Below the pieces are notes generated by a model, which was not told where the DNA came from, searched no databases, and was given only the letters and a program-made list of their open reading frames with translations. Both the position numbers and the translations under genes were made by a program. DNA of 64,000 nt from Ilex aquifolium (lineage: Eukaryota; Streptophyta; Magnoliopsida; Aquifoliales; Aquifoliaceae): NCBI GenBank assembly GCA_951799425.1, contig OX637394.1:46542142-46606141 (forward strand), in the 5' to 3' direction. Shown here piece after piece: positions 3,741 through 64,000 of this stretch; position 1 is the first letter of the stretch, and each line of letters opens with the position of its first letter.

Positions 3741-5434
3741 TTAGTATTTTCTTGCTTGATTTCCTTTCTATGAGAACACACATATAGAAGTGCAAATTAT
3801 TTCACACAGAAATAGAAGTTATTTTCAGTTGAAATATTATCGATTATGTAGAATATAGATTGTGGATTTCTGAATTTTGATAAACTTATTAGGACCCTTT
3901 TTATGATATGGTGTTATGAGGTTTCAAAGTGGAGACATTTTGTTTCATATGATAATAATTCTTGGATATGGAAACAAAAAAGATGAGCAATTTGAAAAAA
4001 TTTCGGGAACCATGTTCAAGATTATAGACCTCAAGTTATCATCATGAAGAATATATCACAGCTGGAAACTCTATTTTAATTTAACATTATACAGCTATTA
4101 GTTTTCATATACTACTTGCTACTTTAACTCGATGGCTTTTTGACTGAATAAAATCCAATGGTTAATTGAACTGTGCTTATTGGAATGATAATTGAACTAT
4201 AAAGCATAGCATTAGACAACCTGATTCTCAGTCAACCAACGTTATGCTTTTAAGACATTAACGAAAGTTTACTTTGACTTGTGGACCCCTCGTTCAGCAT
4301 TTACCAACCTCATGTGATCAGCTAGGTGATTGATTCCAAATTACAATTTTGAATATCTCCATCTAATATAATTAGCCATGAATTGGCTACGGTGGGTGGA
4401 TTGTGTAGGACTCCTTCTATGGTGGGGACTAACTGAGAAACAAGATATGGTCTTGCAGAAATGGTCCATACATAATGATGCATTTCACACTTTGTAAATT
4501 CTTTAGTGAGGTATTACTTCCTCTTGCTCTTTATAGATTTTGTTGTTGTTTGCATCTATTTGTATTCCCTACATTTCCCCCTTTTTGTTGTTGCTTAGAT
4601 ATAAGATGTATGATTATGGTTGTACTTTCATTGAGTACTTGTTTGCATGACCATATGGATTCATAAAAAGTACAAAATAACAACAATTAAAGCTGATTTT
4701 ATAGTACAAAATGACTGATATGTCATCTAAGTATTTCCAGTTTTATATTTTATTAATATTATAACATCAATTACATGCTCTCATCTTTTGATCTTACCTT
4801 AGAATGTTATTATTTATTTGAACTATGATGGTAAAATTAAACCTAGAAAGAGTTCTAAAGCTGACAAATTTAGCAGGGATAAGGACAAAGTTGTTTCCGG
4901 ATACATGAACATTGTCTAGAAATACGTTGAATGAAGAGATAACAGTAGGAGAGTTCAATCTTGTATATTTTCACTTATCAATTGGTTTTCTACTTGAAAC
5001 GTAAGGTTTGGAAATAAGAGGTTAGTTGTTAACGATCTTATTTAAGACTTTTAAAGGGTATGCCCCTGGTTTGACTCATGAGCAGTGGACTATTGAATTG
5101 TTTCTAGCTGTTTCGTTGGGTTTGGGCTAGCTATGGCTTTGGTCATACGTAGGGAGTATCTGTAAATTTTTCCTGTCTAGTCGGGAGGATTTTCAACGTG
5201 TAATGGTCACTCCTTGATAAGAACTCACATGTTGTCCCCTTTATCCTTTTCCAATGGCCAAAAAAATAAAAATAAGGAAGAAGTGAAGATATGAGACCCT
5301 CACATGGATTGTAGTACATTTAAGTAATATTAAGGGTGGAAGAGGATTTTCATATGAGACCCTCCACTGGTTTAGTTTTCTCGATTGTGACCAGAAAATT
5401 GGAAATGAAGAAGTTTATGCAATTTTTCGAAGAC
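3741..5434. other. Noncoding part of duplicated block A
   Basis: No gene is recognised. Homology with block B resumes at about 4372 (= 49662) and runs on to 6358; 3741-4371 is missing from B. A short frame at 4475-4666 is kept in B (49764-49955) with one residue change, but the region is too similar overall for that to argue for coding. Confidence 0.4.
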
Positions 5435-8493: not shown

Positions 8494-8991
8494 TTGGAGT
8501 GTATTTGTGTAATTGGTAAAATATGAACAATATGTTTATGTAGTGATACATTGGATGTTTAACAACTTTTATTTTGAGTTGATGTATTATGCACTGTTTT
8601 ATGAGTTAATATATGTATTGACGTATAATCAATGTGGATATGATTTATCAAGAATTAAAATAAATGTAAAATATATGACATAAAATAAAATGGTTAACAA
8701 ACATATTTTCTGTTTTAGTTTTTAGATTTCATAAAACAACAACTTTTTTGTTTTAAACTTTTAACCACAAAAAAAAAAAAACATTAATTCTGTTTTTTAT
8801 TTTTTTTTACCGAACGCACCCTAAGATGAAAATAATATAGGGGGCATTATAGGAAATTTGTATGTGTAGATACGCAGATATATAATGTATTTGATGAGAT
8901 AACATTGCAAGTTTGCAAATCGCATGAACAGAGGGAAAGGGCGATTAAAGCTCGGCACAAATCGAATAGAAGACCTCAAATCCAAATCCAA

Positions 8992-9062
8992 GTAAGTTTG
9001 AAATTTTTCTCACATCACCACTTTCCAAGCGAAAGCCTTTCAAGTATTTTATTTGTTTGCAG
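8992..9062 (+). other. Intron in 5' leader of kinase copy A
   Basis: A GTAAGT donor at 8992 and a TTTGCAG acceptor ending at 9062 define a 71-bp intron upstream of the start codon. The same intron with the same length is at 52490-52560 in copy B. An upstream ATG at 8924 would read across the splice and stop at 9085-9087, giving a short upstream frame that might damp translation. Confidence 0.5.
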
Positions 9063-9105
9063 AACAATAGGTTCAGTTCAGCCCTAGCTCAAAAGAGGGT
9101 CGGCA

Positions 9106-12100: not shown

Positions 12101-12168
12101 TGAGGCAAGTTGTCAAGTGTTTGCAGAAACTACATGTTGTTCGGCGTCATGCTATAAGTCCAAAGTGA
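9106..12168 (+). CDS. Receptor-like-kinase-type pseudokinase, copy A
   Basis: Five exons join in frame: 9106-9324, 9413-9557, 9701-9837, 9983-10109, 11807-12168, each with GT/AG borders, giving 990 nt and 329 aa. The protein is nearly all kinase fold. It begins FSFKDLEEITDGFSEEN, the usual entry of plant RLK/Pelle cytoplasmic kinases, followed by the loop IGQFQFGKLYRG (28-39) and beta-3 Lys53. The catalytic-loop HRD is V155-R156-N157, and the following Lys and Asn are S159 and H162, so phosphotransfer is unlikely. DFG (175-177) is kept. APE is not recognisable; the helix-F motif CDVFAFGVLLL and the RPTMRQVV end are present. No signal peptide or membrane segment is seen, so the protein is presumably cytosolic. 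Intron 4 is 1.7 kb. A start 5' of 9106 through the leader exon is possible but needs a weak acceptor. Copy B is a frameshifted twin. Confidence 0.82.
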
Positions 12169-12486
12169 TAATCTATTGTAGGTGTAGGCTTAGGCTACAT
12201 GTCTATATCAGGGAAAGCTAACCTTTTAATTTGTTCAGTTCATCTGAAGTAGGATACTGCATTAGCATATAGTAATTGTAAGACTCTGAAATTTATTTCG
12301 CTCTCTCAGGCACATAGAGGCTCCAATAATTGGTATATGTGGAAAGTTTTTCCAATTTTGAACCTCAAACTGTACTTCTTTGAATATCCAGAGTATTTCT
12401 TTTCTTTCACCTTGACTATTATTTTTTCTCCATCAATATATGAGGGTTGGATTTTGTTATAGCAGAGGCTAGAATATATTGAATCA

Positions 12487-13100
12487 AGATCGTAATAAGT
12501 TTAGTGAATAATTATCATAGCTTTGGGGTGAACTCGGCTAAAGCCTCAGGCAATATAGTGGAGAGGCGACTGTTGCAGACTTGGAGAGCAGGGCTGGGGG
12601 ATTCGGATGGGTGGGGATGATCAGAAGAGCTTAGAATTGGGTATACCAAAAAGGTGACAGGTGGTCGGAGAGGTGACCGTCACATAATAAAGGGGGTTGA
12701 AGAGTAAGGGTGACCACAATTAGATTGTTATGTTGAACATTGACAATAATAAATCGTTCCTAAATCAACATCATTTTTCAGGGTCGTGAAGTCCACTTTT
12801 TGACAATTTGGATGGAAAAATTAACAATCGAATATGATCACCTTTTTAGGTGTTTTTATTTATTTATTATTATGTGTGTTTTTATCACTATTGTGGTAAC
12901 TATTTTTATTATTTATTTCGATACAAAAAAAATTACCACTTTTTGTAGGTAATTTATCACATTTGTGCGTGTTTTTATCACTGTTGTGATAATTATTTTT
13001 GCCATTTTTTTCGGTACCACAACAGTGAAAAAAACACACACAACAATGATAAAAATATTTACGAATGTGATAAATAGAGGTATGATACCAAATATTACTT
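12487..13100. repeat. End of block A and an inverted/direct repeat cluster
   Basis: Positions 12487-12813 match 57574-57913 in block B, after which the gypsy element interrupts B. From 12850 to 13075 the sequence is built of repeats of 'gtgtttttatcacta/gttgtg': two direct copies about 110 bp apart (12868 and 12969) and an inverted copy at about 13015-13050, so the single strand can fold. No terminal repeats or target duplication are resolved. Confidence 0.5.
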
Positions 13101-19406: not shown

Positions 19407-20039
19407 CTACTCAAGCCATAAGCCACTAAAGTAAAGAGAAAAGGGGGACAAATGATCACCTTGTCTCAATCCTCTAGTTGCCTTAAACCTTCCCCGACGA
19501 TTTCCATTAATCATAATTGAGAAATTCATTGATTGAAAGCATCCATTAATCCACCCTCTCCACCTACTACCAAAACATTTTACTTCCAACACATGATTCA
19601 AAAAACCCTGGTCAACATGGTCATAAGTTTTTTCAAAATCAATTTTAAACACAATACCTTCTTTACCCCTTCCTCTCCACCTACTACCAAAACCTTTTAC
19701 TTCCAATACATGATTCAAAAAACCCTGGTCAACATGGTCATAAGCTTTTTCAAAATTAATTTTAAACACAATACCTTCTTTACCCCTTGATCTATAATTC
19801 TCTACCACGTCATTAGCCGCCAAAGTTACATCTAAAATTTGTCTTCCATGGATGAAAGCACCTTGACACACTGTTATTGTCCTATTAAGAACTTCCCTCA
19901 ATATCAATGATAGTACCTTTACAATGATTTTATAAATACTAGACACAAGCCTAATTGGTCTAAAGTCCTTCATTCTCAATGGTTTATCCTTTTTTGGAAT
20001 GAGACAAATAAAGGTAGCATTGGTAACTAGATTATTCAC
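19407..20039 (-). pseudogene. LINE reverse transcriptase with a duplicated motif-A segment
   Basis: The 210-residue frame starts with NATFICLIPKKDKPLRMKDF and RPIRLVSSIYKIIVKVLS, the classic fingers entry of plant L1 reverse transcriptase, and continues through QGAFIHGRQILD to GLRQGDHLSPFSLYF (motif B). Between them a 39-residue block is present twice in tandem (117-bp DNA repeat, units about 19557-19673 and 19674-19790). The block holds motif A; one copy reads FKIDFEKTYD and the other FKINFEKAYD. A doubled palm strand cannot fold normally, so the enzyme is dead irrespective of the other lesions. It belongs to the LINE at 16884-23537. Confidence 0.8.
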
Positions 20040-37703: not shown

Positions 37704-40700
37704 ATGGGAAGGCCCTTCAAGATCAGTAGGTTTCTGAGGAAAGTCGATCGAAAGGCAGAGCAGCAAGAGGAAACCCTCAAACTGAAGCGAATGAAGTAAG
37801 TTTGTTAGGCATCTACTATTTTTGTCAATCAAATCCTTTTGAATTTTTTTTGAAATCTTCGGTTCGCCGAATAGCAGAATTCATATGGTGTTTTTGAAAC
37901 GACTTGATTTTCCTCTGTTAATTCGCTGTTTTTCGAATTAAATAAGATATTCTAGTGATCTGTGGCTGATATTTATTGTTTGAATGTTGAATGAAAAAGT
38001 TCTATAGTAAGGGGTACGATTCCTTATCTGTACAAGGACGTAGAAAGATACACTGACGGGTTCAGCGAAGAGAATTTGATTGGAAAATTCCAATTCGGAA
38101 AAGTGTACCGCGGAGTAATTAATGCACTTCCTACAATATATTTGATTGTGAAGGTTTGGGAGCCTCGTGAAATCAAAGGCTATAAGGCAAAAGATCACGA
38201 AGCCAGACTAAGAGTATGATACGGAATCCAAGCACACTCTTTTATTATTCGTAGGATTGATTGGTTGGTTTCAACCTTGAAGGTTATCATCAATTGCCTA
38301 ACTCTGCTTATACTGTCCATGCTGCTTAGGATGAATATTTATTGCTTCATCACGAAGAATTCAACTTCCACCCTGGCTTGGTATTATTGTTTGGATACTG
38401 CCGCGAAGGTGACAAACTCGCCGTTCTCTATGTTCTCAAGCACGCCGGTTCTCCCTTTTTCCCAAAGCCAAACAATACTGTTCATAACCTTGTGCCGGAA
38501 GGTATATCTTTCTTTTTTGATTTTTTTTCTTCTGATTTTCACGTCATACAGTATGATGTGGTTTGATATCATGACATAATGCATAACTTCTCTTTTTGAT
38601 AAGTTATGTGAAATTATGTGTTATAGCAAGGGTGGATAGAACTTAGAACTTTGTTTAGTTTGACTGAAACTCAATATTTAATCATAGCAAATTTAATAGA
38701 AAAAAAATTGAATCTATCACAAGCATATGAAAACAAACCTAGACATAAAAATAATTTAATCTATAACAAGCAAATTGTTTAAGTTGAATCAACCAATCTA
38801 CTTTGATCCAAAATATAACTTATAACACTTAACTTCAAAATATAAGAGTACCATTTTAAATATAACAAATTAATTAAAAAAATCTGGAAAAAAAAGGAAT
38901 TGTTAAGATCAAGTGATGGATGGTAGGTTTGGTTGTGAAAAATAGGTTGGATTTTGTGGTCACAACTCACAAGTTGTATGTGGAACACGACAAAAAGTAA
39001 TGAACTGGTCAGGTTAGTGTGAAGACATCTAATATGATTAATTACATAGATTGGTTTAGAATTGATTAATACTCGACATGAGCTCGAAGTACTATAGCCC
39101 ACGTGACACGACATAACTCAAATGTCACCTCTAGTTGCGAATAGAAGTGAAGAAATTAGAGATCGTAGAAAGAGTTATGTGAGAAGTTAACGTTTAATAA
39201 TTTAATTGCTTAATCTATAAAAGAATCCCAATTATTTTTTAAAATGAAAATCTACCTAAAATTATTTAAAAACTTTCAATGTGGGCAAGCTCTAAATAAT
39301 GCTTAATTTATCAAAATTTTAAATAGGCCCCCAAAGTTTTTTGAAATTGAAGTGGGGGCAGCTGCCCCCACTTCCCCCATGTTGGATTCGCCCGTGTTAT
39401 TGTAACCTCATACAGGCATTGACCCAGCTTGCCAAGTTGCCAAGTCTTACCACTGTTTTTTAAATTGCTATCAGGGAAGCAAAAGTGGTTGGTTGGGGTT
39501 TTGTGTTTCTTTGCTTGGAACTCAAATAGTGAATTTTTTTTTTGTAATACCGCTGTAACAGGTGTTGCTAAACTTTCCATCTATTATAATAAAAAAAATA
39601 TTCTTGTATAATCTTTGATTTTACAAGCTTCTGTACGCTAACTTGTGAACAAATATGTGTCAATTCTATCATATTCTTTTGACAATTTAGTTAGGCACTT
39701 GTCGCTAATGTGGTGTTTTGCATTTGTAGATAGTTTTACTTGGCTGCAGAGAATCAATGTTGCTCTTCGATTTGCTAATCTCCTCAAATTTTTGCATGGT
39801 CACAATTCGATGGGCTTGTCCTTTCTGGTTCGCAATATAAGTGCTGCTCATATCATGCTTGATGAGGTTTGTTTTGGCGTTGTTCATCTCATCTTTTTAA
39901 ATCTGTTTTATTTTGCATACTTGCTTCAATAATTTTTTTGCTTTTCTTTTCTTGGAAGTAACATTGTTTTGTACCTTACATAACACCTTGATCTGTTTTG
40001 ACATGTAGGAGTACAACCCAACATTGTTCGATTTTGGCATGATTTCTGGTGGACTTTTCTCAGATAAAACAGTGGCTACTTATGAGCATCTCTGTGGTTG
40101 GTATGGTTATATTGACCCAGCTTCTGGTTTTACAGGTATGCCAACTCTATTTGTTTAAAGCTCTTATAAAACAATACATTTTGGTACTAGCGAGGATCAT
40201 GAGAAAGGCGAAAGAGAAGATTAAGATGGAAAGAATGGAGATGCAAAAATATGATAAGAGAGTAGTGTGTTACGCCAACTGCATTTTGGATAAGAGAAGA
40301 TGAGAGATAAAGAAAAATATGATAAGAGAGTAGTGTGTTAGGTTATACAGTTACACCTAAGCTTGTGTATATGTTCACAATTACAAAGTACTAAAATACC
40401 TTTTAAGTTAGAAATAATACATAGCATAACAATATTTGGAAGGCTAAATTGCCCATCAGGGTGCGAAGCTTGGACATGGACTATAGCTTATGGTAGGATC
40501 AATATCAATGATTTGGTTCTGAGGAAAAGACCCCTAACTTGCAATTCTTCATAGTGGCGTGATGTATAGATGTGATAGCGACAACGTTGATCATTTATTA
40601 TTACATTGCCCAATTACAATGTTTTTGTGGTACAAATTATTTTTAAGTTTTAACTAGTAGGCATGTGTTGGGTGTCATTGCTAGGGGTGCAACTTGGGCA

Positions 40701-43414
40701 GGTTGAGGGATCGACCCTAGTCCAACCCAAGGTATAAAATTTTCAACCTTAACCCGACCTCCACTCGAGATACTTAACCTGAGTTTTGTCCGAGTTGATT
40801 TCGGGCATGCTCAGGTTGAAATCGGGTTACTCAATTCGAACCTAATTTGGGTTGGTAATTCAGACTCGACAAATAATAATACTAAATTAGGTGTGAGCCT
40901 TTGCTCAATGTTGCACTATTACATAGACTTACATGACCCACTAAGATGAAACTCATCAAGACAACTTATTAAGGGTGTAAGGGCGAGCTTTCTTTATATA
41001 GGAGAGAGGGGAGAGATTATTTGAGTTATCTATCCGATATGGAATGACAACTCCTTGTCTTTCTTTTGCTTTTTTTATTTATCCCACATTGTTTGGGTAA
41101 ATTTTTTTCACCATCTATAGTCTTTATAAATTATGTTTCACTCCCCTTTTAGATAATAATAATAATAATAATAAATGTATTTGGATTTTATTTTTATATT
41201 GCTTATATAAATATAATACATGAATTCGGGTTAAACTCGGGTTGGGTTTGGGTTGAGCCCGATTTCATCAATTCAAGTTGGGTTCGGGTTAAACCCGTGA
41301 ACCCGAGCACTTAACTCGAGCCTTGTCTGAATTTGTTTGGGTTAATGTTTTTCAACCCTAACCCTAACCTTAAAAACCTCAATCCTAACACTATTTTTTC
41401 GGGTTGGGTTTGGTTTGGCCAGTCCAAGTTGCACCCCTAGTCATTGGGGGGTTACTTTTTGGAACTATGCAATCTTTGCCTCATTACTGGTCAATTTTGA
41501 TGGAAAGAAATGATATAATATTTGAAGATTAGTTTTAGTGGATGGACGGCTTAGTGGACCGGATGTACTTTTTGGCATCTTTTTTTGTCTCTAGTTTCTT
41601 AGGATTTTGATGGAATTCCACTCATCTGCTTTTGACGGGATGGAGAGTTTTATGGCCATCCTATACTTCTCTTGTTGCGCTGCGTTCGAATTTAATAAAA
41701 TCATTTCTTTCTTATTTATTTATTTTTTTTGTGAGTGCAAGAATGCTACACTCACTATCTTTTTTATTAGTATAAATGTATCAATTTTGGATGATCGAAT
41801 AGGATTTTTCTTAAATAGTTGAATCATGCTAGGCATCTAATGATTGTGTTATGCCACAACAGTTGGTAAAAAGAATTGATAGAATATTGTGCTTTCTTTT
41901 TTTGAGCACTTTTCACGAAGTTTTGATATCTGCAATGGTATGATACTGCATGGTTTGATTACTCTCGCCCATACGCTAACAATATTATTGTTATGAGTAT
42001 TCTTGCAACGTGTTCTTAGTTATGCTTTTTTTTTAATAGCTTAGTTGTTAATAACTTTTTTGTGGATTGTAGATTGGGCTTTTTGATTTTGGGCTTTATA
42101 TGGTTCGAGTATAAAGGATTTTATATTCAGATAAAGGCGCACATGTTTAGTCTCGCTTGGCCATCAAGAATTACTCAGCCATAGATTTACTTAATCACCA
42201 TGTTTTCTTGGTCCTCCCACATCCCCTTTGTTTGCTTTATGAAAGACCAAATGTTTACATATTTCCTACCTCATAAATGAACCTGGAGTTCTTCAGTAAA
42301 TGGTAGCATTGAAACCCTTATGTAGTCAGTTGCAATTTTTTTGCGGCTTCTGCTTCGCAACACTTATATTTTTAGCTGTTCACTTTTCCAAAGACTGAGG
42401 GAACTGTTGAAGTGAATTAGAAGTTTGTATGCTGTGAATGAAATAACTAAAGGGGCATTTTTCGGTTGGAACAAATCAAACAAGACTTTGTTGGGTTCAT
42501 ACGCTATGTCATGGATGGTCATGGCTAATTGGGGTATGATCATGTTGATATTTATGAGATTCTCTCCTTGCTAATTTATTTAGCATTAGGGCAAAATGCA
42601 GAATGCTCAGCTGTTTGGGTTTTCTTTTACCTAGATGAGTATAGTACAAAGTATGAAACTATGAATTCAATACATATAATTGTTTTTTCATGTAATTACG
42701 TGTTATGAAAACACTTGTGTAAAGATTCTTATACTTTGTTCAGAAAAGGAATAGTGACGAGTCTGATGACATTCATAAAGTTTTGCGCTTGACAGTTGAA
42801 AAATTCTGGGATTTATGAGTTTTTGAACTTCTTGTTCCTCTGACATTTGCATCTCTTGTTGTATAGCCAGATTTGGATTAAACATTCCATGTGTGCTTGT
42901 TTGAGTTCTACATCAATCATTGGGCCCTGCTTGACATTATCATTATCATTTGGCTACGATACTCACCCCGCTTGATTTCTGCTTTCTGAATTAATTAGTT
43001 TTTTGTGATCTTTGCTGTATGATTAACCTTCCTAATCCAATGTCAGGGGAATATTCGGAAAAAAGTGATGTATTTGCATTTGGTGTGTTACTTTTGATGT
43101 TGATTACCAAAAGAGTCTGCAACGAGGAAGACAGATTGAATGGGGACGTGCCTTTTCTTTGTCACTGGGTCCAGAGCCAGCACACACCCAAAAAGTCCAT
43201 CATGGGTTTTGGGAAGGTTTACGGGTCACTTGTGCACCACAGCTTAGAGGCTGATCCACTTTTTGTTTCCAGTGATGGACCTTGGATTACAAAGGTGGCG
43301 ATGCAATGTGTGGAATCTTATCCGTCAAGGCGACCAACAATGAAGCAAGTTGTGAGGTACCTGCTTAATTTGCAGGTCGTTCAGCGTCATGCTCAAGTTC
43401 TTGGTCTGGTATGA
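37704..43414 (+). CDS. Receptor-like-kinase-type pseudokinase, gene C
   Basis: Six exons join in frame: 37704-37795, 38012-38213, 38330-38501, 39730-39866, 40009-40135, 43047-43414, 1098 nt, 365 aa. Intron 1 has a perfect GTAAGT donor. The first exon adds a basic leader (MGRPFKISRFLRKVDRKAEQ), then YLYKDVERYTDGFSEEN, loop IGKFQFGKVYRG and Lys78 in LIVKVWE. HRD is again V189-R190-N191, with the loop Lys and Asn replaced (Ser, His); DFG starts at Asp209. The same three catalytic losses in A, B and C imply a common non-catalytic ancestor. The final exon has EKSDVFAFGVLLL and RPTMKQVVRYL. The exon-3 insert KHAGSPFFPKPNN is absent from A and B. Intron 5 is 2.9 kb and contains a LINE 3' end with a nested hAT. 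No stops or shifts were seen, so the gene may be functional. Confidence 0.8.
38620..39134. mobile_element. Probable hAT-derived relic in intron 3 of gene C
   Basis: The right edge in reverse complement, TAGAGGTGACATTTGAGTTA then GTCGTGTCACG, matches the style of the hAT ends elsewhere in the window. The left edge (about 38626, aagggtggatag) is a poor match and no duplication is evident. Confidence 0.35.
40420..41740 (+). mobile_element. 5'-truncated LINE 3' end, interrupted by a hAT
   Basis: The plus strand reads IWKAKLP-type and WTIAYGRININDLVLRKRPL, then DHLLLHCPITMFLWYKLF (zf-RVT), up to 40673. After the hAT insertion (40682-41439) the C-terminal part resumes with LMERNDIIFED and WMDGLVDRMYFLAS, ending near 41740 in a T/A-rich tail. 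It lies in intron 5 of gene C. Confidence 0.65.
40682..41439. mobile_element. hAT-type MITE nested in a LINE
   Basis: The left end TAGGGGTGCAACTTGGGCAG and the right end in reverse complement TAGGGGTGCAACTTGGACTG are identical over 16 bases. Flanks gtcattgc (40674-40681) and gtcattgg (41440-41447) match at 7 of 8. The interior contains 'acccgagtt'-type words and an (AAT)n run near 41154. Same family as 35418-36269. Confidence 0.78.
41740..43046. other. Rest of intron 5 of gene C
   Basis: AT-rich sequence without recognisable exons or terminal repeats. A minus-strand 60-codon frame (42703-42885) has no known relatives that I can see. Confidence 0.4.
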
Positions 43415-51967: not shown

Positions 51968-52603
51968 TTTGCATCAATTAGTATATATATATGTACTAGT
52001 CATAACTCGTGTCTGAAGACATGAGAGAACATAAAATTCGAGCCTTCAAAAAATTGATCTAATTATATTAAATAATAATTTTTTTATCCTTCATTTCTTT
52101 GATTATATCATTTAATTTTTTGAGAAAATACGTAATTCAATAAATTTTTTGATAAAATACGTATACACAATATATGTCTAAAATAAAAATTATATTAAAT
52201 TAAAAATTAATCAAATATTAAATAATTGAATATGTGATAGAAATGAATGATGTAATAATTTTGGGGGAATAAAATTCAACTTTTTATGTATTTTATTATA
52301 TTGATCGTAAACAGCAATTTGCCCCAGAAATAGATATTAAGATGAATATAATATAGGGGGCATTATAGGAAATTTGTATGTGTAGTATACGCAGATATAA
52401 TATTGCAAGTTTGCAAATCGCATGAACAGCGGGAAAGGGCGATTAAAGCTCGGCACAAATCGAATAGAAGACCTCAAATCCAAATCCAAGTAAGTTTGAA
52501 ATTTTTCTCACATCACCACTTTCCATGCGAAAGCCTTTCAAGTATTTTATTTGTTTGCAGAACAATAGGTTCAGTTCAGCCCTAGCTCAAAAGTGGGTGG
52601 GCA

Positions 52604-55600
52604 ATGGCACGTGAGGAGGCTTTACCGATGTTTTCGTTCAAGGACCTAGAAGAAATCACCGATGGTTTCAGCGAAGAAAATTGTATCGGACAATTTCAGT
52701 TTGGCAAACTGTACCGAGAAAAGGTTAATTCAGATGATGGGCCGCGCTTCTGTACGGTGAAGATTGGGAAATTCCTGAACTTTATTTTTATTGTGAGGGC
52801 GACAACGAAGGCAGATTAAGAGTACGTCGGGGTTGATTTCAAACGAAGCCAGCTTTTTCTCAAATTTTTTTTGATGTGTTACGTATTGATATATATATTT
52901 TTTTATTATTAGGATGAATTATCGCTTCTTGAGCACGAAAAGTTCAATTTTCATCCGGGGCTGGTAAAGTTGTATGGATATTGTGCTGATGAAGAAAACC
53001 TTGGTATTATTTATGATCTCAATCCACTTGATACTGTGCATAACCTTGTGCTTAAAGGTAAATATCCTTCTGCTTCTTGTTTGTAGAGTGGATAATCGAA
53101 GTTCTCTGTGGTGACATAGTCTAACCTCGTAAATTAGTTTAATGTTTACTGCCACTGGTATAAATTTGTTGATTTGACTGTTTTGAGTTGTTGTGATGTA
53201 TTTGTAGATAGTTTTACATGGCTGCAGAGACTTAAAGTTGCTCTTCGATTTGCTAATCTCCTAACACTTTTTCATGGTGGAAATCCGATGGGCCTGCATC
53301 TTCTGGTTCGCAACTTAAGTGCTGCTCATATCGTGCTTGATGAGGTTAGTTTTGACGTTGTTCACCTCCTCATTGTTGTTGGCATGTATGCTTCAAGAAC
53401 AACTTTTCTTTTCCTTTGTCATATTTTTTTTGTGAGTGGTGTAATTTTCTCCATCTTACATAATATCTTGAATTGTTCTCCTTGTAGGATTACAACCCAA
53501 AATTATTCGACTTTGGCATGATTTCGGGTGGAATTTTCCCCGATAGGACTATACCGCAGCTTGCGTCTCTTTCTGGGTGTATTGGTTACATTTCTAAAAG
53601 TTTTTGTTATTCAGGTCTGCCAGCTTAATATGTTAATATTGTTGATTATCAAAATGCTGTTTTCATTGTCATTGGTGAAACTGCACATTACGTTTTGTTG
53701 TATTGTATTTTGTGGAACCTTTGTGCCAAACATCTTTAGCTCATCACAAACTGAACTGAAACTTGTACAAGGGATTAGGGGAAGATATGGCAAAGAAGAC
53801 TATGAGTAGATATATTGATTAATCAAACAAAGTTAATTTATCTTTTTTTGTAGTTGGACTCCATGATTCATTGTTGTTAGACTATGATAATAAATTAGCG
53901 GGAACAATTTTATTGACTAAAGGGAATAACCCTTTAAATAGCTTAAACTGGTGTAACAACATACCGGTTCTCTCTCTTCTTTATATAAGTATTCTCATTT
54001 TGTAGGACCATTTACATGGCCAATTAGGTTGATGAAGTAGTTTTCAATGGGCTAAAATTTGGTATATGCGTGAGTTTTATATGTCCACAATATAAGCTTG
54101 AAAAGCACTAAAATACTTGACTAGTGACTCCAACCAATTATAAAGTTTGCTTGTCCTATATCTGAGACTAAATGTCAGAAGTGATAATTTTATTACATAT
54201 TTGATTATTAAGCTAGATTTGGGTTTTTATTCTTTGATAGTGGTTTGATTTCGGGTTTTTTATGATGACTTGAGCGTGTTCATGGCTCTACCTCAGCTTG
54301 AGCCTCTACCAAGCCGAGCCTGATAAAAAAATCCAAGCTCAATAGCCAAGCTTGAGCCAAAGCTTATCGTTACCAGTTTCAGCCGAGCCCTTTGAAAGTA
54401 TTGGGAAAATTAGGTTAAGAATTTAGCCATGGTACCTGTCAACATTTTCTTGAGTATGATAGTTGCATTTCTTGTACAGCTGGACTCTCAGTCTCTCATG
54501 CGTTTCCAAATTTCTTGAACTGTCAAGAGTGGAAGAGTAGTCATTTTTCAGATTTATTGGCGCATTCTAGTTTGGAGTTTTTTGGGGGATTCTAACTTTT
54601 GGAAAACATGGGAGACATAGTTTTCATTTTTACATGATATATCTATGTATTTCCAAATAGATTCAGTAACTGAACTGGTCCCTTTGCTGCACATACATAT
54701 TCAATAAGAGATAATGTGTTGCTACACCAATATTTTGTGTAAGTGGATATCTGGAAATTTTCTTGCTGAAAAAACTCAAATTATTTCCTGTTTTGTCCCC
54801 AACCCTTTTTTCCTGGTATGCCTGAGTCGCTAACCAAGCTATTCAAACATTTGTGCAGCTTGGTTGACCTGGCTGGGAAGTGGGAACTATCCCACGGAGG
54901 GTATGGTGTGGTGGGGGGTGGGGATAGGTAAAGAAGAGAGGATGTGGCAAGGACATCAGCGAAGTATGACATGGAATTTTTAGAGATGTGCTTATTAGGT
55001 TGGATTCTGGGATTTATTATATGTTAAAAGTGCCAAAACTGAGGGTGTAGTCTCTGTAGTTTTCTCATCCCCCCTTGCACGTTTTTGGATCGGTTTGTGC
55101 TAAGCCTAAAGCAACAAGGTCACACTTTGTTGGTTGGTTGTTGTTCCTTTAGTGAGGCTGAATAATACTGCTAATGCATTCCATAGATATACGTAAAAAG
55201 TGTTGTAGTTACCATATCAGGCCCATCAATGATTTGTGATCTATTTTCTGTTCTTGAGATTAAATTAATCCCCGTTTTTGCTAGAATGAGTAACTTTGAG
55301 AACTTGGTGGCAGGCTATTGGTGTGAAGGATGTGATGTTTTTGCATTTGGGGTTTTGCTTTTGATGTTGATAACCAAGAGAGTCTATAACGAAGAAGACA
55401 GAATGAATGAGGATGTACCTAAAGTTTATGAATGGGCACAAACTCAGTACAAACCAAAAAAGACCACCTTGGGCTATGGCAAGTCCGGTTGTTCACTTGT
55501 GCACGAAAGCCTGGAGAAGGAACCAGTTTTTTGTTCAAGAGATGGACGTCAAATTACGAAGCTGGCTATGCAATGCGTTGCATATTATTCTTCAAGCCGA

Positions 55601-55675
55601 CCAACAATGAGGCAAGTTGTCAAGTGTTTGCAGAAACTACATGTTGTTCGGCGTCATGCTATAAGTCCAATGTGA
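52604..55675 (+). pseudogene. Kinase-like copy B, one-base frameshift
   Basis: The exon layout is identical to copy A: 52604-52821, 52913-53057, 53208-53344, 53488-53614, 55314-55675. Exon 1 is 218 nt against 219 in A because one T is missing near 52765 (aagattggg against aagatttggg). This shifts the frame right after the beta-3 lysine and reaches a TAA at 52817-52819. All other exons are open and splice sites are kept; the last exon differs from A at two residues (Lys-Ala to Lys-Thr; final Lys to Met). In-frame it would have the same V-R-N replacement of HRD. The lesion looks recent; sequencing error would be an alternative explanation. Confidence 0.8.
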
Positions 55676-55806
55676 TAATCTATTGTAGGTGTAGGCTTAG
55701 GCTACATGTCTATCTCAGGGAAAGCTAACCTTTTAATTTGTTCAGTTCATCTGAAGTAGGATACTGCATTAGCATATAGTAATTGTAAGACTCTGAAATT
55801 TATTTC

Positions 55807-56195
55807 GCTACGGTATGTTTTATCTAGTCTAGTGTAATATTGCACCTCAACTGTTTTGGTATGACATAAGATAAATTTATGGAAGTACTGCATGTGTAGT
55901 TCTATTTTTCTTTTTTGTCCACAGGCATACACATTTATGCCATTGTATTGTATTAAGGCAAATTACAGACTGCCTACTTGTTTCTTGCTCTCCTAGCTAC
56001 ACATACAACCCCTATGGTGTTGGTACAAATTGAAACTGTTAGTTTACCATCTCAATTAACAGAATGAATAAAAATAACTCTTCAATAAAAGAAAGTATCA
56101 GATTCTATATGTGTTGTATTTACTTGAGTGAAGTTCTACAGACAACCAATCCACTTCTTCTTCTTCTTCTTCTTCTTCTTTAGCTCTCTCTCTCG
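55807..56195. repeat. 389-bp segment present in B, missing in A
   Basis: Block A goes directly from tttcgct (12303) to ctctcaggcac, while B has extra sequence ending in a (TTC)n microsatellite (56155-56180) and a CT run. The 'cgct' at both edges suggests a deletion in A between short repeats rather than an insertion in B; no terminal repeats are seen. Confidence 0.5.
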
Positions 56196-56367
56196 CTCTC
56201 TCAGGCACATAGAGGCTCCAATAATTAGTATATGTGGAAAGTTTTTCCAATTTTGAACCTCAAACTGTACTTCTTTGAATATCCAGAGTATTTCTTTTCT
56301 TTCACCTTGACTATTATTTTTTCTCCATCAATATATAAGGGTTGGATTTTGTTATAGCAGAGGCTAG

Positions 56368-57568
56368 TGATGGGACATTTCTGAGATTATGGAGGATCAT
56401 GACACGTGACCTCGGCATTACAGGCGTCTTCCTCCACGATGAAGATATGTGATCTCGGCGCCGAGGGTACTGTCCTCCATGTTTGGGACACGTGTCCTCG
56501 GACACGACGTACCCTCGGTAAATACCTCGGCACCGAGAGTACTCTCATCACAAAGTCATCATTTTCCCTCGGCACCGAGGGCTACTAACTAGAGCTGTGG
56601 CCCTGCCACATGATTTCTACTCCTGGAAAAGTCACTGGCGACTGTCCTGCCTCGACTAGACCATGAATCATGAGGGCGCTCTGCACGAGGGAGTCAGGGC
56701 GTCAGGTCTAACAGGATACCCCTCCAAGGAGGGCAGGACATGTGGCAAAAAGCGCATGATTAGGGGCAGAAGGACGAGAGTGCCCCTGCTGATATACGGC
56801 AATTGCAAACGAGCATTTAATGAATCCCCGACTGATGGGATGTCTACAATGACACAAGAAACCAAAAAGTGATGGGTGTTAAATGCTCCAGCATCAGGAC
56901 ATTTAATGACTCATCCTCGAAAGAAGAGCATTGAATGCTCTGGGAACCGAGCATTCAATATCCTTGCATAAAAGGAAGAGCTTTGATTGCTCGGGAATCC
57001 GAGCAGTTAATAGTGGGGTCTTCCCCATACGGAATAGGGGGCACACTGTTCCATCTCTGAACACTACCTATCCACTAGACTATTAGCAATGATGAGTCCG
57101 GGTGAGTATAAATAGCTCTCAAAAATACCTTGCAAAAGGTACGCGAACACAACTCAAAAGAACAAACAGTGCTTTCTTCTTCCCCTTTCTCAAAGAGCTA
57201 ACTTGATCGTTGGAGGGGATACGCCGGAAAACACTCCGGCTCCCTTTCTAAGCTGTTTTTTCGTGTGCCAGGTATCCTTATCAACCCGCCGGAGGCATCG
57301 AGCGACCATAACAACAATTCATCACCACTCCTTTGGTCCTCTCAATCTTTTCTTTGCTCCGGAATACACAACCTTCGAGACCGGAACCCTTGTGGATCCG
57401 TCGGAAGGATCGGGAGAACAATAGAAACAATTCATCACCACTCTATCAGGCCTTTTGGCCCTCTCAACCCGTTCCTTGCTGCGGGGTCATCGACGTGCAC
57501 GACCCATGCGAGTTTACCAAGGGAGAGATCTGTCTTCCATAACTATTGTGCGAAATTCTGTGCGCACA
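56368..57568 (+). mobile_element. Solo LTR of 1201 bp
   Basis: It starts TGATGGGACATTTCTGAG and ends GTGCGCACA. The 5-bp duplication GCTAG is perfect (56363-56367; 57569-57573), and block A has the single, unoccupied GCTAG near 12484, which proves both ends. TATAAATAG at 57107 places U3 before and R-U5 after it. The open frames inside (e.g. 57265-57573) are chance. The family is unknown; the TGATG start resembles that of the neighbouring gypsy element. Confidence 0.88.
56403..56585. promoter_or_regulatory. Palindrome and G-box cluster in the LTR U3
   Basis: Two ACACGTG G-boxes (56402-56408 and 56488-56494; the second within the perfect palindrome ggacacgtgtcc) and repeated ctcggcaccgag/ctcggcgccgag palindromes lie within 180 bases. 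G-boxes bind bZIP and bHLH factors in plants; the CTCGG palindromes may be additional enhancer units. Confidence 0.45.
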
Positions 57569-58280
57569 GCTAGAATATATTGAATCAAGATCGTAATAAG
57601 TTTAGTGAATAATTATCATAGCTTTGGGGTGAACTCGGCTAAAGCCTCGGGCAATATAGTGTAGAGGCGACTGTTGCAGACTTGGAGAGCAGGGCTGGGG
57701 GATTCGGATGGGTGGGGATGGCCAGAAGAGCTTAGAATTGGGTATACCAAAAAGGTGACAGGTGGTCGGAGAGGTGACCGACATAATAAAGGGGGTTGAA
57801 GAGTAAGGGTGACCACAATTAGATTGTTATGTTGAACATTGACAACAATAAATCGTTCCTAAACCAACATCATTTTTCAGGCTCGTGAAGTCCACTTTTT
57901 GACAATTTGGATGTGATGATGTCTGAAAATTAAGCCCAGGTTTACCTCAGCCCGGTAGGTCAGTAAAGGAGCTCAGTCTAGAATCCTGTAATACAGAGGA
58001 CCCAGACCCGAGCTCAGTCTAAAAAGAGTCCACGGCTAATGTCGCAATGAAGACATCCGGAAACAGCTGGCATCTTCAAGGCAACGGTTGGGCCGTGACT
58101 TTAGGCATAGGACTCTCAAAAACCCGGGATCTTCTCCTTGGCCTGGGGGAGGATCCCACGATTAGAGGGGACAATCTCCGGAGAGAGGGATCCCCTAGAG
58201 GAGGAGGACGATGATAAATACTAGAAAAAAAACCCAGTAGAGGGGAGAATTTTGTAATATCTTGAGAAGAATCAATATAG

Positions 58281-59546
58281 AAAAAGGAGCCAGTCTTTTC
58301 CACTCCAACTTGGATGGATCCCGTTAGGGAATATCTGCAGAACGGAACTTTGCCAAGAGAGCAGAAAGAGGCGGCAAAGGTAAGAATGAGATCTGCCAGA
58401 TTCACCATTATACAGGGAAACTTGTACAAAAGAGGATTTTCGGTACCTATCCTTAAGTGTGTAGGAGGGGAAGATGCAGACTATATACTCAGGGAGATCC
58501 ATGAAGGAATTTGTGGAAATCACATAGGAGCTCGAGCGCTAGCAGGAAAGGTCTTGAGGCAAGGGTACTACTGGCCCACAATGTTGAAAGATGCCTCCGA
58601 TCTGATAAGAAAATGCAAAACGTGCCAAATACATGCCAACATCTCGCACTGTCCGCCAGAATTTCTAACGTCTGTAATAAGTCCTTGGCCTTTCCAACAA
58701 TGGGGATTGGATATTCTGGGACCTCTTCCCACCGGTGCAGGGCAATGCAAGTACGCCATCATCGGGGTAGATTACTTCACCAAATGGGCGGAAGTAGAAC
58801 CTTTAGCAACAATTACGGAGCAGAAGATTCAAAACTTCACGTGGAAGTCAATCATCTGCAGGTTCGGGATACCCAGAGCTATCGTTTCTGACAATGGAAA
58901 ACAGTTCGACAACCCGAAGTTCAGGAAGTTCTGCGCAGACCTTGGAATAAAGAATTATTTCTCAGCTCCAGCACATCCGCAATCCAATGGGCAAGCAGAG
59001 GTTACAATCAGAACAATCAAGTCAGCATTGAAGACCAAGCTCGAATCACTAAAGGGGAAATGGGTTGAATATATCCCCGAGGTGATCTGGGCATACCGGA
59101 CAACCCCCAGGTCAGCAACTCAAGAAACCCCGTTTGCATTGGCTTTCGGAACAGAGGCCGTTTCTCCTGTGGAAATAGGATTACCATCACCTAGAATGGA
59201 ATTGATGGAGACCGAGCTCAATGATGGGTCCCTCTTGCTGAATCTTGATCTCCTAGAGGAAAAAAGAGAGACAGCTCTTCAGCACATTCAAAGTTACCAG
59301 AGGAAGACAGCCAGGTACTATGACAGAAAGGTCCGACTTAGGAGCTTCCGAGTAGGAGATCTTGTGCTCAAGAAGCTCTTGCTCGCAAGAAAGGATCCCA
59401 CCCACGGGAAATTGGGCCCAAACTGGGAAGGCCCATTCGTGGTCTCGAGAATAATCAGACCTGGAAATTACGAATTACGAATGGAGGAAGGGAAGGCCCT
59501 ACCCCACTCATGGAATGCTGAACACCTTAAGAGGTTCTATCAGTAA
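58281..59546 (+). CDS. Gypsy integrase, C-terminal part of pol
   Basis: The frame is open from 58281, with the first Met at 58314 (410 aa from there); it is the tail of a polyprotein, so no start of its own is expected. It begins with the linker WMDPVREYLQNGTLP. Numbering from the Met: zinc-binding H63, H70, C101, C104; core domain WPFQQWGLDILGP (Asp133), VSDNGKQFD (Asp193), NGQAE (Glu229), with 35 residues between the last two, the complete D-D-35-E triad; a GPF module (LGPNWEGPF, 367-375) and a PHSWNAEHLKRFY end. The enzyme would insert the element's cDNA into chromosomes. RNase H and RT that should precede it are gone: stops lie just upstream at 58278 and 58263. The frame is unusually intact for a decapitated element, which suggests a recent deletion. 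Confidence 0.9.
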   Translation, partial: KKEPVFSTPTWMDPVREYLQNGTLPREQKEAAKVRMRSARFTIIQGNLYKRGFSVPILKCVGGEDADYILREIHEGICGNHIGARALAGKVLRQGYYWPTMLKDASDLIRKCKTCQIHANISHCPPEFLTSVISPWPFQQWGLDILGPLPTGAGQCKYAIIGVDYFTKWAEVEPLATITEQKIQNFTWKSIICRFGIPRAIVSDNGKQFDNPKFRKFCADLGIKNYFSAPAHPQSNGQAEVTIRTIKSALKTKLESLKGKWVEYIPEVIWAYRTTPRSATQETPFALAFGTEAVSPVEIGLPSPRMELMETELNDGSLLLNLDLLEEKRETALQHIQSYQRKTARYYDRKVRLRSFRVGDLVLKKLLLARKDPTHGKLGPNWEGPFVVSRIIRPGNYELRMEEGKALPHSWNAEHLKRFYQ

Positions 59547-60146
59547 GCTTTCTTTGTAATAAAGATATTCTCAATAAAAGTAATGTTTTGAGGTTTGGGA
59601 ACTATTCAAAACCTGTGAGCCAAGACCCCTTGTGGATAGGGCCATTCTTTATGTTGGAGTCTGTGACTATTTGTGATAATTGTTCATTACATATTTCTGC
59701 GAGTTCGGGATATATCACAGAGGTTCCGCTAAAAACATGTCTCTTGCCCTTAAGAACCTGAAATGCCAATTAGCAACACTTGAGAGCCTCGTAGCTCAGA
59801 CACACTCATTCAATCCAAAATCTAAACCAAAGGAATGATCAGGAAGTCCTATAGCGGAGCTCACACGCCCATTTCTGTAACAAAGCCATTGGAGCTCGGG
59901 TAAAATTCTAAATCTATGCAGTCAGCCACCGAGCTCTGGAACTTACTAAGACCGCTCGCTGAGCTCCGAAAGCTCGGATGAGCTCTACAGTCCAGCGGAA
60001 CACCAAAGCTCATAACTAAGCAAGAGGTTCCGAACATCCGCTCAAGGGTTTCCCAAGCTAAGAAGAAACGAGTCCATCAGACCAAAACAAGCAATCACAA
60101 TATGAAAGGCAGCAAGCAGGTAAACCAACAACAGGTCCACAGAATA

Positions 60147-60180
<34 letters not shown>

Positions 60181-60255
60181 GGGTACAAGAGTTCAGTTGA
60201 TCAAAGAAAACATTCGGAGAAGCATAGAAAGCAAACTACGGTAAAAAAAGGCTTC
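59547..60255. other. Spacer between integrase and antisense genes
   Basis: Contains aataaa-like signals at 59558-59577 after the pol stop, several GAGCTC words (59860-60000) and an A run of about 26 followed by GGGGG (60152-60183). No gene is seen. The A/G run looks like a polypurine tract but is not followed by TG, so I do not place an LTR border there. Confidence 0.5.
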
Positions 60256-61363
60256 CTAATTCCTCTTGATAAGGGATCTCAGCTCAGCCACCTCGTTCCT
60301 GAGGCGGACATTTTCCTCCTTCAGTGCGTCCCTCTCTTGCTCAACCTCGTGGAGCACTGCCAGTAGCTTGCTTCCAGCGGGGGTAAGGCTGGTATTCGAA
60401 AGTGAATAAGGAGAAAAAGAGCCCTCCCTCTTACGCTTCTTGGAAGAAGTACCTACATCCTCCCCACCAGAGTCTTCTTCCTCATCAACTTCATCACCGG
60501 AGTCAGAAAATGAAGTCCAAGGTGAGAGTAAGGTAGAGGAGAACTCATATCCAGCGGCTTCAGCACTAAGCAAATGAAGGTTCTCTTTCGTCATCAGATC
60601 AGCAAAGGTCACCGGCTCAGCAGCCAGTAGCTCGTCAATTTTAGGCGGCACGGGCAAATCCAGCTCAGAAAGACCTGAAATACAAAGACGTGATGAGAAT
60701 CAATCTTAAAACAAAAAAGGTGGAAAAGGATTCGGGGTTGGTCTTACTAGTGGGAGAAAAGCTTTTCCAGGACCTTGGGACCCTAGTACTGGGGCAGCGC
60801 AGCTCGGGAGACCGCCAAGAACTCCCGGAAGCAAAGAAGAAGCGGTGTGACCATCCCTCAGGGTTGGAAGGAAGACCCATTACCAAAAGGGAAATATTAA
60901 AGTGCCTCCAACGAAAGTAACGGAAACAAGGGATATCTTCTTCCTCAATCTCAAAGAAGTAAAGAAATTCAGAGACAAAAGGGAACCTGTCATTGCCATT
61001 CAGGCGCCAGAACAAAAAGAAGCTGACTAGAGCCGCCCAGCCACGAGGAGAGAGACGGGACGGACATAGACCGTAGTACGCCAAGATACGCCCTATGGAA
61101 GGATGTATGGGAAGACAAAGGCCAAACTCCAGGGCACCTTCGAAGAGACAAACCTCTCCTCTTGGCAGGAAGTTGCACGGCTCGTTTGCAGTAGGGGCAC
61201 GAAGAGGCAAATTAAGATGAGGGAAAAATTTTCTTTGGATGCCTCCCAAATCAGAAGGAGACACCGTCGATGGAGTCAAGTAGCGAGAGTGCCGCTCCTG
61301 ATCAACACCGAAAGAAGTACGTTCCTGGAACTGGGAAGAAACGGGGGCAGCCATCGAAATCAA
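60256..61363 (-). CDS. Antisense gene of the gypsy element, Transposase_28-like
   Basis: Two minus-strand exons, 61363-60748 and 60674-60256, are joined over a 73-bp intron (donor GTAAGA, acceptor TTTGTATTTCAG) in matching phase, giving about 344 residues. A second Met nine bases in (61354) may be the true start. Residues about 55-190 (CLFEGALEFGLCLPIHPSIG, LAYYGLCPSRLSPRGW, FRYFRWRHFN) resemble the family annotated as putative gypsy-type transposon (Transposase_28, PF04195), found in antisense frames of Tat elements; its biochemical role is unknown. The second exon is acidic (SDSGDEVDEEEDSGGED), then basic (SSKKRKREG, possible nuclear signal), and ends in a coiled coil (VLHEVEQERDALKEENVRLR). 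A product made from the strand opposite pol could act in nuclear entry or regulate the sense RNA; that is inference. Confidence 0.68.
60675..60747 (-). other. Intron of the Transposase_28-like gene
   Basis: 73 bp, GTAAGA donor at 60747 and TATTTCAG acceptor ending at 60675. Removing it joins act-a with gt-ctt and continues the frame as SLSELDLPVPPKIDE. A retained reading frame across a canonical intron argues that the antisense gene was truly spliced. Confidence 0.65.
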
Positions 61364-61630
61364 AGAAAGGACAGGAGATAGATTTTCAGATTCGGAGGGA
61401 AGGCGAAGTTTCTTGAAACTTTCTGAAACTAGAGAGAAGGAAGAGGGCTAACTGTCTTTTCGTTTTCTTAAGAACTGTTGGCGGTTAACAGCAAGAAAGG
61501 CGATAATAAATGGAGGGAAAGCAAATCGACTACGGGTCAAAGCTATTCGACGAAAGGACAGCGTGTCGTATCAGTTTCACCTCTTTCGGAGTTACTACCA
61601 CCCTGGTGCTTATGTGGAAAAACCGTGTAG

Positions 61631-62230
61631 CAAAAGAGCTCTGTAGCTCATGATGAATCTCTTAATTCATAAAAAGAGCTCTGAAGCTCATGATGAATTT
61701 CTTAATTCATAAAAAGAGCTCTGTAGCTCATGATGAATCTCTTAATTCATAAAAAGAGCTCTGAAGCTCATGATGAAATTCTTAATTCATAAAAAGAGCT
61801 CTGTGGCTCAGGATGAATTTCTTAATTCATAACAAGAGCTCTGAAGCTCATGATGAATTTCTTAATTCATAAAAAGAGCTCTGAAGCTCATGATGAATTC
61901 CTTAATTCATAAAAAGAGCTCTATCGCTCATGATGAATTTCTTAATTCATAAAAAGAGCTCTATCGCTCATGATGAATTCCTTAATTCATAAAAAGAGCT
62001 CTATCGCTCATGATGAATTTCTTAATTCATAAAAAGAGCTCTATCGCTCATGATGAATTTTATAATTCATGAAAAGAACTCTGTCGCTCATGATGAATTT
62101 TAAATTCATGAAAAGAACTCTATCGCTCATGATGAATTTTATAATTCATGAAAAGAGCTCTATCGCTCATGATGAATTTTATAATTCATGAAAAGAGCTC
62201 TGAAGCTCATGATGAATTACTTAATTCGTA
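61631..62230. repeat. About 15 copies of a 40-bp tandem repeat
   Basis: The unit begins aaaaagagctctgtagctca and ends tcttaattcat. Early units are exactly 40 bp; those after about 62040 carry 'ataattcatg' variants and one is 39 bp. Each unit contains the palindrome AGAGCTCT, the palindrome TCATGA and an ATGAATT/AATTCAT stem, so each can fold. The array lies between the two antisense genes of the gypsy element. Tandem repeats in this position are known seeds of satellite DNA in Tat elements. Confidence 0.92.
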
Positions 62231-62632
62231 AAAAAAAAAAAAAGTTCTTCAGCTCTTGGTGAGTATTTTTAACTCAGACTCAGGGACAATTATTTTGCTT
62301 TAAGGAAAACTAAAGTATTCCTTGAAGCAAGGAGGCAGAGACCAAGAGCTTGCAGCTATGCAGCCTTCGATAAAGTCAGCTCAGACTGTTAGCTCGTAAA
62401 GAGATTTCTATATATCTCGCGAGCTCATAAAAGACGTCTACAACCCACGGCAAGTACCCGGACGGTTCAGTCAAGACAGATCAAGTGTCAGAGAGCACGA
62501 GAAGCACAAGGGAGGCAGAGACAAAAGCAAAAGGCTTTGTTCAAAATGAGCAGCGTGTACATCAATAAAAAAAAAAAAAAAAAAAAAACAAAAGGAAAAA
62601 AAAGGGGGGGACAAGGAAAATAGTAAAAACTC

Positions 62633-64000
62633 CTATGATATGGAAGGGGCAGGAAGTGAAGTCGCTGGCAGGTCTGCAGTAGAAGTATTGGCCGGGTCTG
62701 CAGGTGAATCCGCGGATGCAATGGCAGATGAAGCCTCTGAAGAGGAAGTAACCAAAGTCCCAGGTGCAGCTAATGGAATAGAAGCATCAGCTTCGGTTAA
62801 AGCCCTCACAACCAGATCAGCAGAGAAAGGGGCCGAGGTAGGGAGGTCGACAGGAGCAGGGGGCATGGCAACTTCAGGAATACCCGAGGAAGGAACAGGC
62901 ACAGCGGGCAGAAGAGTCTGAACTTGAGCCTCGGGCGGCAGCTCTGGACCAGCAGGAGCTCCCTCAGGAACGGTAGTTGAGCCAGGCACCTCTGTTTCCT
63001 TTTCAGCTGAAGCCCCCTCATTTTCCTCGTCTGGAACGTCAAAATTAAAATCCAGCTCAGGATAAGCTTCCTCAGCGACCCCTTGAAAAGCTAGCCACCC
63101 TTTTGCCCACTTAGTAACAACATCGTCCTTCAACTTGACGATTAGTTCATCCCTCTCTTTAACAGTCGCACGTTGAGTTTCAAGGTCAGCAAGCATGACA
63201 TCATGAGCTTCTGTAAGGATGCTACACTGACTTTTCAGCTCATTCACCGAGGCCAGCGCCTCAAACTTCTCTTGGTTTACCTTAACCCAGGATTCCGTCT
63301 TAAGTTTGAGCTCTTCCTTGAACTTTGTTAGCTCATCCTTACCCCTCGCCTCTCTTTCTTGGGCTCGGTTCCTCTCTGTCTCCAAGTCCCGGATAACGGA
63401 AGCTTGTTTTTCCGAAAGTTCCCGGAGGCTCAGAAGCTGAGCTTGGAGGTCGTCGTTGGCAAAGGTCAGCTCAGCAGCTTTGTTCTCCCAGGCTTTGGAC
63501 GCCTTAACCGAGCTCTCCATAGAGCGGATTCGACTTAGGGTGCCCTTCACATGAATAGCCAACTGAAGAAAAGTACAGTCAGAAGTAAACAGAAAGCAGG
63601 CAGCAAATAGAGACGTAAGGAAAAACAACATGTGCTTACAGCGGTGGCTCCGTAAAGGGCTGAATTGATAGAACTCTCCAAAGACATTGTGGCAGCTCGG
63701 ACAACGTCGGAATCAGGAATGATAGAAGTTATAGCGCCGGCAGCAAGCTCAATGTTGTCTAAAAGAGAATCCTCGCTTCCTTCAGTTTTAAGCCTTTTCT
63801 CCTTCTCCGGTTTGGAGCTCGGCGCAGTGATCAGGGAGGCACTCTCAGACGGCCCAAGAGGGGGACTGATAGGCTGAATTTGGGGGATTATACCCAGAGC
63901 ATTCTCGACTTCGGTTGAGGAGGGAGCTTGGTCCGAACTCGAGGGGGGAGCAAGACCCTCAGAAGCCGGGGCATGGGAGCTCGGTTTCTTCAAAAGGCTC
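62633..64000 (-). CDS. Antisense coiled-coil gene of the gypsy element, partial
   Basis: Two minus-strand exons: one open from the window edge to 63640, and 63562-62633, joined across a 77-bp intron (GTAAGC donor, TTTTCTTCAG acceptor) in phase 0. About 430 residues are visible; the N-terminus lies outside. The first exon is Pro/Ser-rich then turns into DNIELAAGAITSIIPDSDVV. The second begins LAIHVKGTLSRIRSMESSVK and forms a long coiled coil (to about KLKDDVVTKWAKG), followed by an acidic patch (FDVPDEENEG) and a low-complexity Pro/Ala/Ser tail. Long coiled coils follow the Transposase_28 domain in similar antisense proteins, so the missing N-terminus could carry that domain; I cannot tell. 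There is no resemblance to gag or pol. Confidence 0.6.
63563..63639 (-). other. Intron of the antisense coiled-coil gene
   Basis: 77 bp with GTAAGC donor at 63639 and a pyrimidine-rich TTTTCTTCAG acceptor ending at 63563, phase 0. Without splicing the upstream frame runs into a hydrophobic stretch and then stops. Confidence 0.6.

Follow-up and report, generated by a model that had tools for sequence, protein, structure and literature searches.

A probable tandem pair of antisense Transposase_28 genes with predicted introns in a Tat-group Ty3/gypsy element of Ilex aquifolium

When two long open reading frames run in tandem against the coding strand of a plant retroelement, are they genes at all, and if so, did they arise by duplication or by the splitting of one protein? 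The question is raised by a 64,000-nucleotide stretch of the 800-Mb genome of Ilex aquifolium (C4:46542142-46606141; “the window” below). Here an earlier note, made from the letters alone, had described two spliced genes in one gypsy element, downstream of integrase on the strand opposite pol, and had offered both origins. We regard the locus as very likely to be the 3′ accessory region of a Tat-group Ty3/gypsy element in which two antisense Transposase_28 genes, which we call A and B, form an old tandem pair. The next 8 kb beyond position 64000 are referred to as L009, and coordinates given as extended continue the window numbering into it (64175 is L009 175).

Gene A lies on the minus strand at 61354-60256 and would encode 341 residues. 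Exon 1 (60748..61354) holds the ATG and a Transposase_28 domain (PF04195, 32.1 bits against a cut-off of 26.2); it is followed by a predicted intron of 73 bp (60675..60747, phase 1, GTAAGA..TTTCAG) and by exon 2 (60256..60674), which encodes an acidic stretch, the basic patch KKRKR and a short leucine-zipper-like end before the stop, with a weak HALZ/DivIC likeness under the Pfam cut-off. Gene B, also on the minus strand, is best modelled in four exons (65326-64540, 64468-64265, 64175-63640 and 63562-62633, extended) encoding 818 residues, with predicted introns of 71, 89 (or 86) and 77 bp. Introns 1 and 2 lie in L009; within the window fall the part of exon 3 at 63640..64000 (running on to 64175), intron 3 (63563..63639, 77 bp, phase 0, GTAAGC...CTTCAG) and exon 4 (62633..63562), with a charged proline-free stretch, a Pro-rich tail and the stop. 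Because its first exons are outside the window, gene B had been misread as a coiled-coil protein in contrast to a Transposase_28 gene A. The description of A stands; extending the sequence past 64000, which brought in the rest of gene B and a 3′ long terminal repeat (LTR) of 514 bp, revealed Transposase_28 in B as well (37.3 bits for the modelled protein, 39.5 bits for the exon 1 frame), followed by the basic patches KRK and KRLK, a long charged proline-free stretch that is coiled-coil-like in part, and the Pro-rich tail.

Since gene B likewise begins with Transposase_28, A and B are paralogues. Their proteins are 32% identical over 157 residues (BLASTP E 2e-21), and the A intron and the 71-bp intron 1 of B both split the seventh codon after a conserved Trp, in phase 1. 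The 73- and 77-bp introns, which the earlier note had paired as having conserved phase, differ in phase and are therefore not counterparts; both are present as short GT-AG introns, as it had said, and the B model has two more beyond the window. In a tree of 16 sequences, A from several subfamilies forms a clade apart from B (support 1.000), which places the A/B duplication before the sampled subfamilies. Homology, a shared intron place and phase, and the age of the split between A and B favor a duplicated module rather than one divided protein.

The genome was then considered as a source of relatives. A PF04195 search scored 150 of 5838 first-look candidates, all 150 above the cut-off, and searches with gene A and with exon 1 of gene B scored 118 of 7838 and 146 of 8192; all these counts are lower bounds. 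Both genes are found in the same order in each of the 22 regions compared (the 20 regions outside the window that match A best, and two from B matches), making 23 loci with the window. In a tight subfamily of 15 loci plus the window, A is intact in 14/16, B in 14/16 and both in 13/16. In this subfamily together with L046, in which both frames are broken, GT-AG is kept at each intron in 17/17 aligned rows, intron 3 of gene B included. The A intron shows GT-AG at the same place in 22/23 loci (the window and 21/22 fetched), its length varying from 69 to 75 bp while place, phase and GT-AG are kept; the intron pattern failed at L050, where the exon matches nonetheless break at the same point. Four loci (L045, L047, L048 and L049) that are 60-64% identical in A keep the A intron place and have the B exons in the same order, some of them frameshifted.

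Several other arrangements of A were seen among the fetched loci. L026, which matched residues 1-340 of A in one frame, was considered as an intronless retrocopy and rejected: the intron is present and readable in frame, and exon 2 is partly missing. A partial tandem duplication of gene A occurs in L018 and L037, in which codons 64-304 occur a second time up to the end of the L018 stretch, and L051 has a 93-bp piece of gene B within gene A (4553-4645, reversed), apparently a template switch between the paralogues.

Selection on the frames was estimated as the ratio of nonsynonymous to synonymous change (dN/dS) by the Nei-Gojobori method, computed in the antisense frames and for pairs with the window copy unless stated. 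For A exon 1 the ratio is 0.12 against L046, 0.13 against L045, 0.13 against L047, 0.10 against L048 and 0.14 against L049, and spans 0.10-0.15 over all ten pairs computed. In 5/5 comparisons the third codon position, counted in the antisense frame, takes most of the substitutions in this exon (8, 9 and 41 by codon position in the closest). For B exon 1 the ratio is 0.10 against L046 and 0.06 against L049, the latter with dS saturated at 3.8. At the level of sequence, this pattern fits proteins maintained by purifying selection, acting on the Transposase_28 exon of each gene, and does not fit a chance frame.

Three other explanations have to be weighed against an old gene pair. That the tandem repeat had split one ancestral protein in two would be suggested by the window taken by itself, where A holds Transposase_28 and B a charged, helical-looking part, like complementary halves, and the repeat reported between the two genes is indeed there (40 bp, 15.1 copies, 61632..62234). 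Each gene has its own Transposase_28 exon, however, that of B lying just past the window, and A comes with an ATG, an intron and a stop of its own; moreover, L026, which belongs to a different subfamily, has an array unlike that of the window, lying between gene A and the integrase frame (55 bp, 4.9 copies, 2703-2969), and no array was found between its B and A genes. We therefore hold such a split to be extremely improbable. Hardly better placed is the possibility that the frames are chance products or the codon shadow of a sense gene, with GT-AG at the intron borders by coincidence. Coding DNA can give rise to frames on its opposite strand, and sense frames of 103 and 123 residues do overlap A and B; yet these two are the only sense frames of at least 100 residues listed from integrase to the window end, the third-position pattern and the dN/dS values fit the antisense frames (the frames in which constraint was computed), and the A intron is constant in place, phase and GT-AG but not in length.

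The third alternative is that the useful product is the antisense RNA, controlling the element through double-stranded RNA or small interfering RNA, with the proteins secondary. A role for antisense RNA, alone or alongside a protein role, is proposed in the sections of PMC7264820 consulted, and we give this option a small share of the probability; a role of RNA only predicts neither third-position-biased change nor conserved splice sites. The old pair of antisense Transposase_28 genes is the explanation we prefer.

A number of observations nonetheless count against this preferred explanation or temper parts of it. The splicing of A and B is read from the sequence alone. The loci were picked by their match to A or B, so that loci without the searched gene are under-sampled. 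The B exon 1 ratios come from two usable pairs of ten, one of them saturated; the other eight (any with L045, L047 or L048) were dropped for frameshifts or a failed donor match, with values from 0 to 0.41. In B exon 4 the ratio is 0.21 for window-L046 and 0.45 for L045-L047, the other four of six pairs being saturated, and from these two values the B tail appears less constrained than its Transposase_28 exon. The coding start of gene B is unsure, as the 240 bp ahead of its ATG (L009 1327-1566, extended 65327-65566), with no in-frame ATG, are frame-constrained too: dN/dS is 0.04-0.12 for the window against L047, L048, L049, L001 and L004 (dS saturated in some) and 0.22 against L046, pairs with L045 being set aside as frameshifted. 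Translation may start at a CTG, or a 5′ exon may be missing. One candidate for the latter, ending at a conserved TAG|GTACG, is not claimed, its distance to the ATG not being constant modulo 3 in 10 rows.

The protein ends call for similar caution. Residues 510-665 of B are 37% charged and proline-free, and coiled-coil-like at 561-600. Two home-made scans were applied, one counting a/d positions and one comparing heptad hydropathy with 1000 shuffles (p up to 0.02). In B the first marked the window starts 146-152, 487-504 and 747-753, so that the core of the stretch where a coiled coil was expected went unmarked, and in A it marked nothing; the second marked 11/157 B windows (starts 331, 466-496, 561-566 and 776-781), some outside the expected stretch, and 1/62 A windows (306-340, p 0.009 uncorrected), about the number expected by chance. 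The labels “coiled coil” for B and “zipper” for A are thus partly supported as sequence features, and the coiled coil that had been ascribed to B is patchy; among the Pfam matches of B there was no SMC family. A single-sequence structure prediction of Transposase_28 reached a mean predicted local distance difference test score (pLDDT) of 43.4 and was not used for a fold search. DNA binding by the domain therefore rests on the prediction published in PMC11963269, in the portion consulted. A profile search of the PDB gave three hits (one adenosine deaminase-like protein, best E 0.012), which we judged from the alignment to be due to chance.

Both genes lie inside one element, as had been proposed. 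Its 5′ LTR begins at 57914, the start given in the earlier note, and is incomplete, comprising the first 380 of 514 bp (57914..58293, plus strand); it is identical at 379/380 positions to the 3′ LTR (65958-66471, extended; compared part L009 1958-2337). The target site duplication GGATG stands at 57909-57913 and again directly after the 3′ LTR. From these LTRs and the GGATG at each side it follows that A and B share a single enclosing LTR pair; a further LTR between the two genes was not found. The element reads pol forward, then A, the repeat and B in the reverse direction, then the 3′ LTR, with 6,411 bp from pol to the 3′ LTR. What is left of pol is its integrase end, an open frame at 58281..59546 on the plus strand (PF00665 rve 3.3e-13; PF17921 (H2C2) 2.9e-10). 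Two similar motifs, an A-run with GGGGG..ACAAG, are located just 3′ of both antisense stops (60152-60189 and 62578-62615) and resemble polypurine tracts on the sense strand. Inspection by eye of the alignment upstream of gene B shows a TATA-like stretch between that gene and the 3′ LTR.

Comparison with the sister copy L052 and with the 3′ LTR places a deletion junction at 58290..58293, with a 4-bp microhomology, CCAG, present in both parent sequences (5′ LTR and pol). The window copy lacks everything from gag to the second RNase H, its 5′ LTR being joined to pol just before integrase, and the primer binding site is gone with the deletion. Among the 40 scored of 291 first-look candidates, the whole junction was matched at the window copy only. 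With one difference in 380 bp between its LTRs, the window copy inserted recently. Most of its coding region is gone, and a deletion after the insertion is the simplest reading.

The empty site of the insertion can be seen in a tandemly duplicated host segment, about 97% identical between 8822-12814 and 52338-57913 and continuing into L009, with weaker relatives at 39711-40066 and 43065-43393. This segment contains a protein-kinase-like frame (55187-55675) below the Pfam cut-off, and there is a clear kinase frame on the minus strand at L009 4483-5046. Close to the element, at 56368-57568, lies a 1201-bp solo LTR of another family with GCTAG on both sides, its empty site being in the duplicated segment at 12405-12814. 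A 117-bp direct tandem duplication, 97% identical, is located at 19555-19788.

Within the Tat group, the lineage is probably Retand. In L052 the order is RVT_1, RT_RNaseH, RVT_3/RNase_H and then sequence matching the window integrase frame; reverse transcriptase, RNase H, a second RNase H and integrase is the order published for Ogre and Retand, to which the second RNase H is common (PMC6317226, as far as consulted). In the parts of PMC11963269 considered here, Retand elements have LTRs of 315-1,194 bp, 2,933-6,566 bp between pol and 3′ LTR and usually a 5-bp target site duplication, and antisense Transposase_28 frames are their mark, of a function not known. The Ilex element agrees with this in the second RNase H before integrase (L052), its two antisense Transposase_28 genes between pol and the 3′ LTR, its 514-bp LTR, the 6,411-bp region and GGATG. 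In the same survey 97% of clusters have antisense TRP28 frames and about half have tandem arrays; of the 104 antisense frames counted in 63 clusters, 57 encode TRP28. The earlier assumption that one antisense frame is the norm is hence borne out for Transposase_28, at about one frame per cluster, and not for antisense frames at large, as more than one is common.

The long region with antisense Transposase_28 and tandem repeats is therefore shared with Retand elements described in that portion of PMC11963269, and the two Transposase_28 genes with a common intron place set the Ilex element apart from them. The word “intron” is found nowhere in the main text of PMC11963269, and the parts of it considered here mention no element with two TRP28 genes (Figure 3 and the supplements, outside this scope, may hold elements with two TRP28 boxes). 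Similarly, Grande gene23, RIRE2 and the antisense frames of Silene Retand (PMC7264820) have an accessory antisense frame between pol and the 3′ LTR; in the main text of PMC7264820 “intron” occurs 0 times, and its passages covered here mention no second antisense paralogue for these elements. PvRetro13 ORF2, from the same passages, is also encoded antisense and contains an SMC-type region that the B tail may resemble, whereas the charged stretch in Ilex is the C-terminal part of a Transposase_28 gene and has no SMC match in Pfam. Ogre is a plant Tat-group element that uses host splicing, as is predicted from sequence for the Ilex element; its intron is in the sense transcript, in the gap between gag-protease and reverse transcriptase, whereas the introns here are antisense (PMC6317226, in the part consulted). 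In sum, antisense Transposase_28 frames and repeats in Retand are already described, and the paired, intron-bearing arrangement is absent from the passages of PMC11963269 and PMC7264820 examined.

How could such genes persist and act? Internal promoters of the element would drive antisense RNAs, which the host would then splice. The genomic RNA of a retroelement is reverse-transcribed, so that sense-oriented introns tend to disappear. Antisense introns would face backwards in the genomic (sense) RNA and so would not be removed before reverse transcription, which would account for their survival. The products of A and B may be nuclear proteins that dimerize and act on the element's own DNA or chromatin, regulating its expression or integration. 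A nuclear regulator of the element's own DNA is our best guess, prompted by the basic patches and the possibly dimerizing ends, and we offer it tentatively, at less than even odds. In Grande, GENE23 is reported to have a promoter of its own and a nuclear product (PMC7264820, in the portion consulted), which provides a lead for function. A broader proposal is more doubtful still: that the lineage kept a duplicated antisense pair, with four introns, through many rounds of reverse transcription, only backwards introns surviving, and that the two Transposase_28 paralogues, one long and one short, work together as a two-component nuclear regulator (for instance as partners via their helical ends), requiring the host spliceosome and with a role comparable to that of retroviral antisense accessory genes.

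Seen as two paralogues that share an intron place and are under purifying selection, what was a puzzling open frame becomes a gene pair that can be put to the test. If the genes are spliced as predicted, a retroelement can retain introns that oppose the direction of its genomic RNA, and surveys built on unspliced open reading frames would miss such genes or cut them up.

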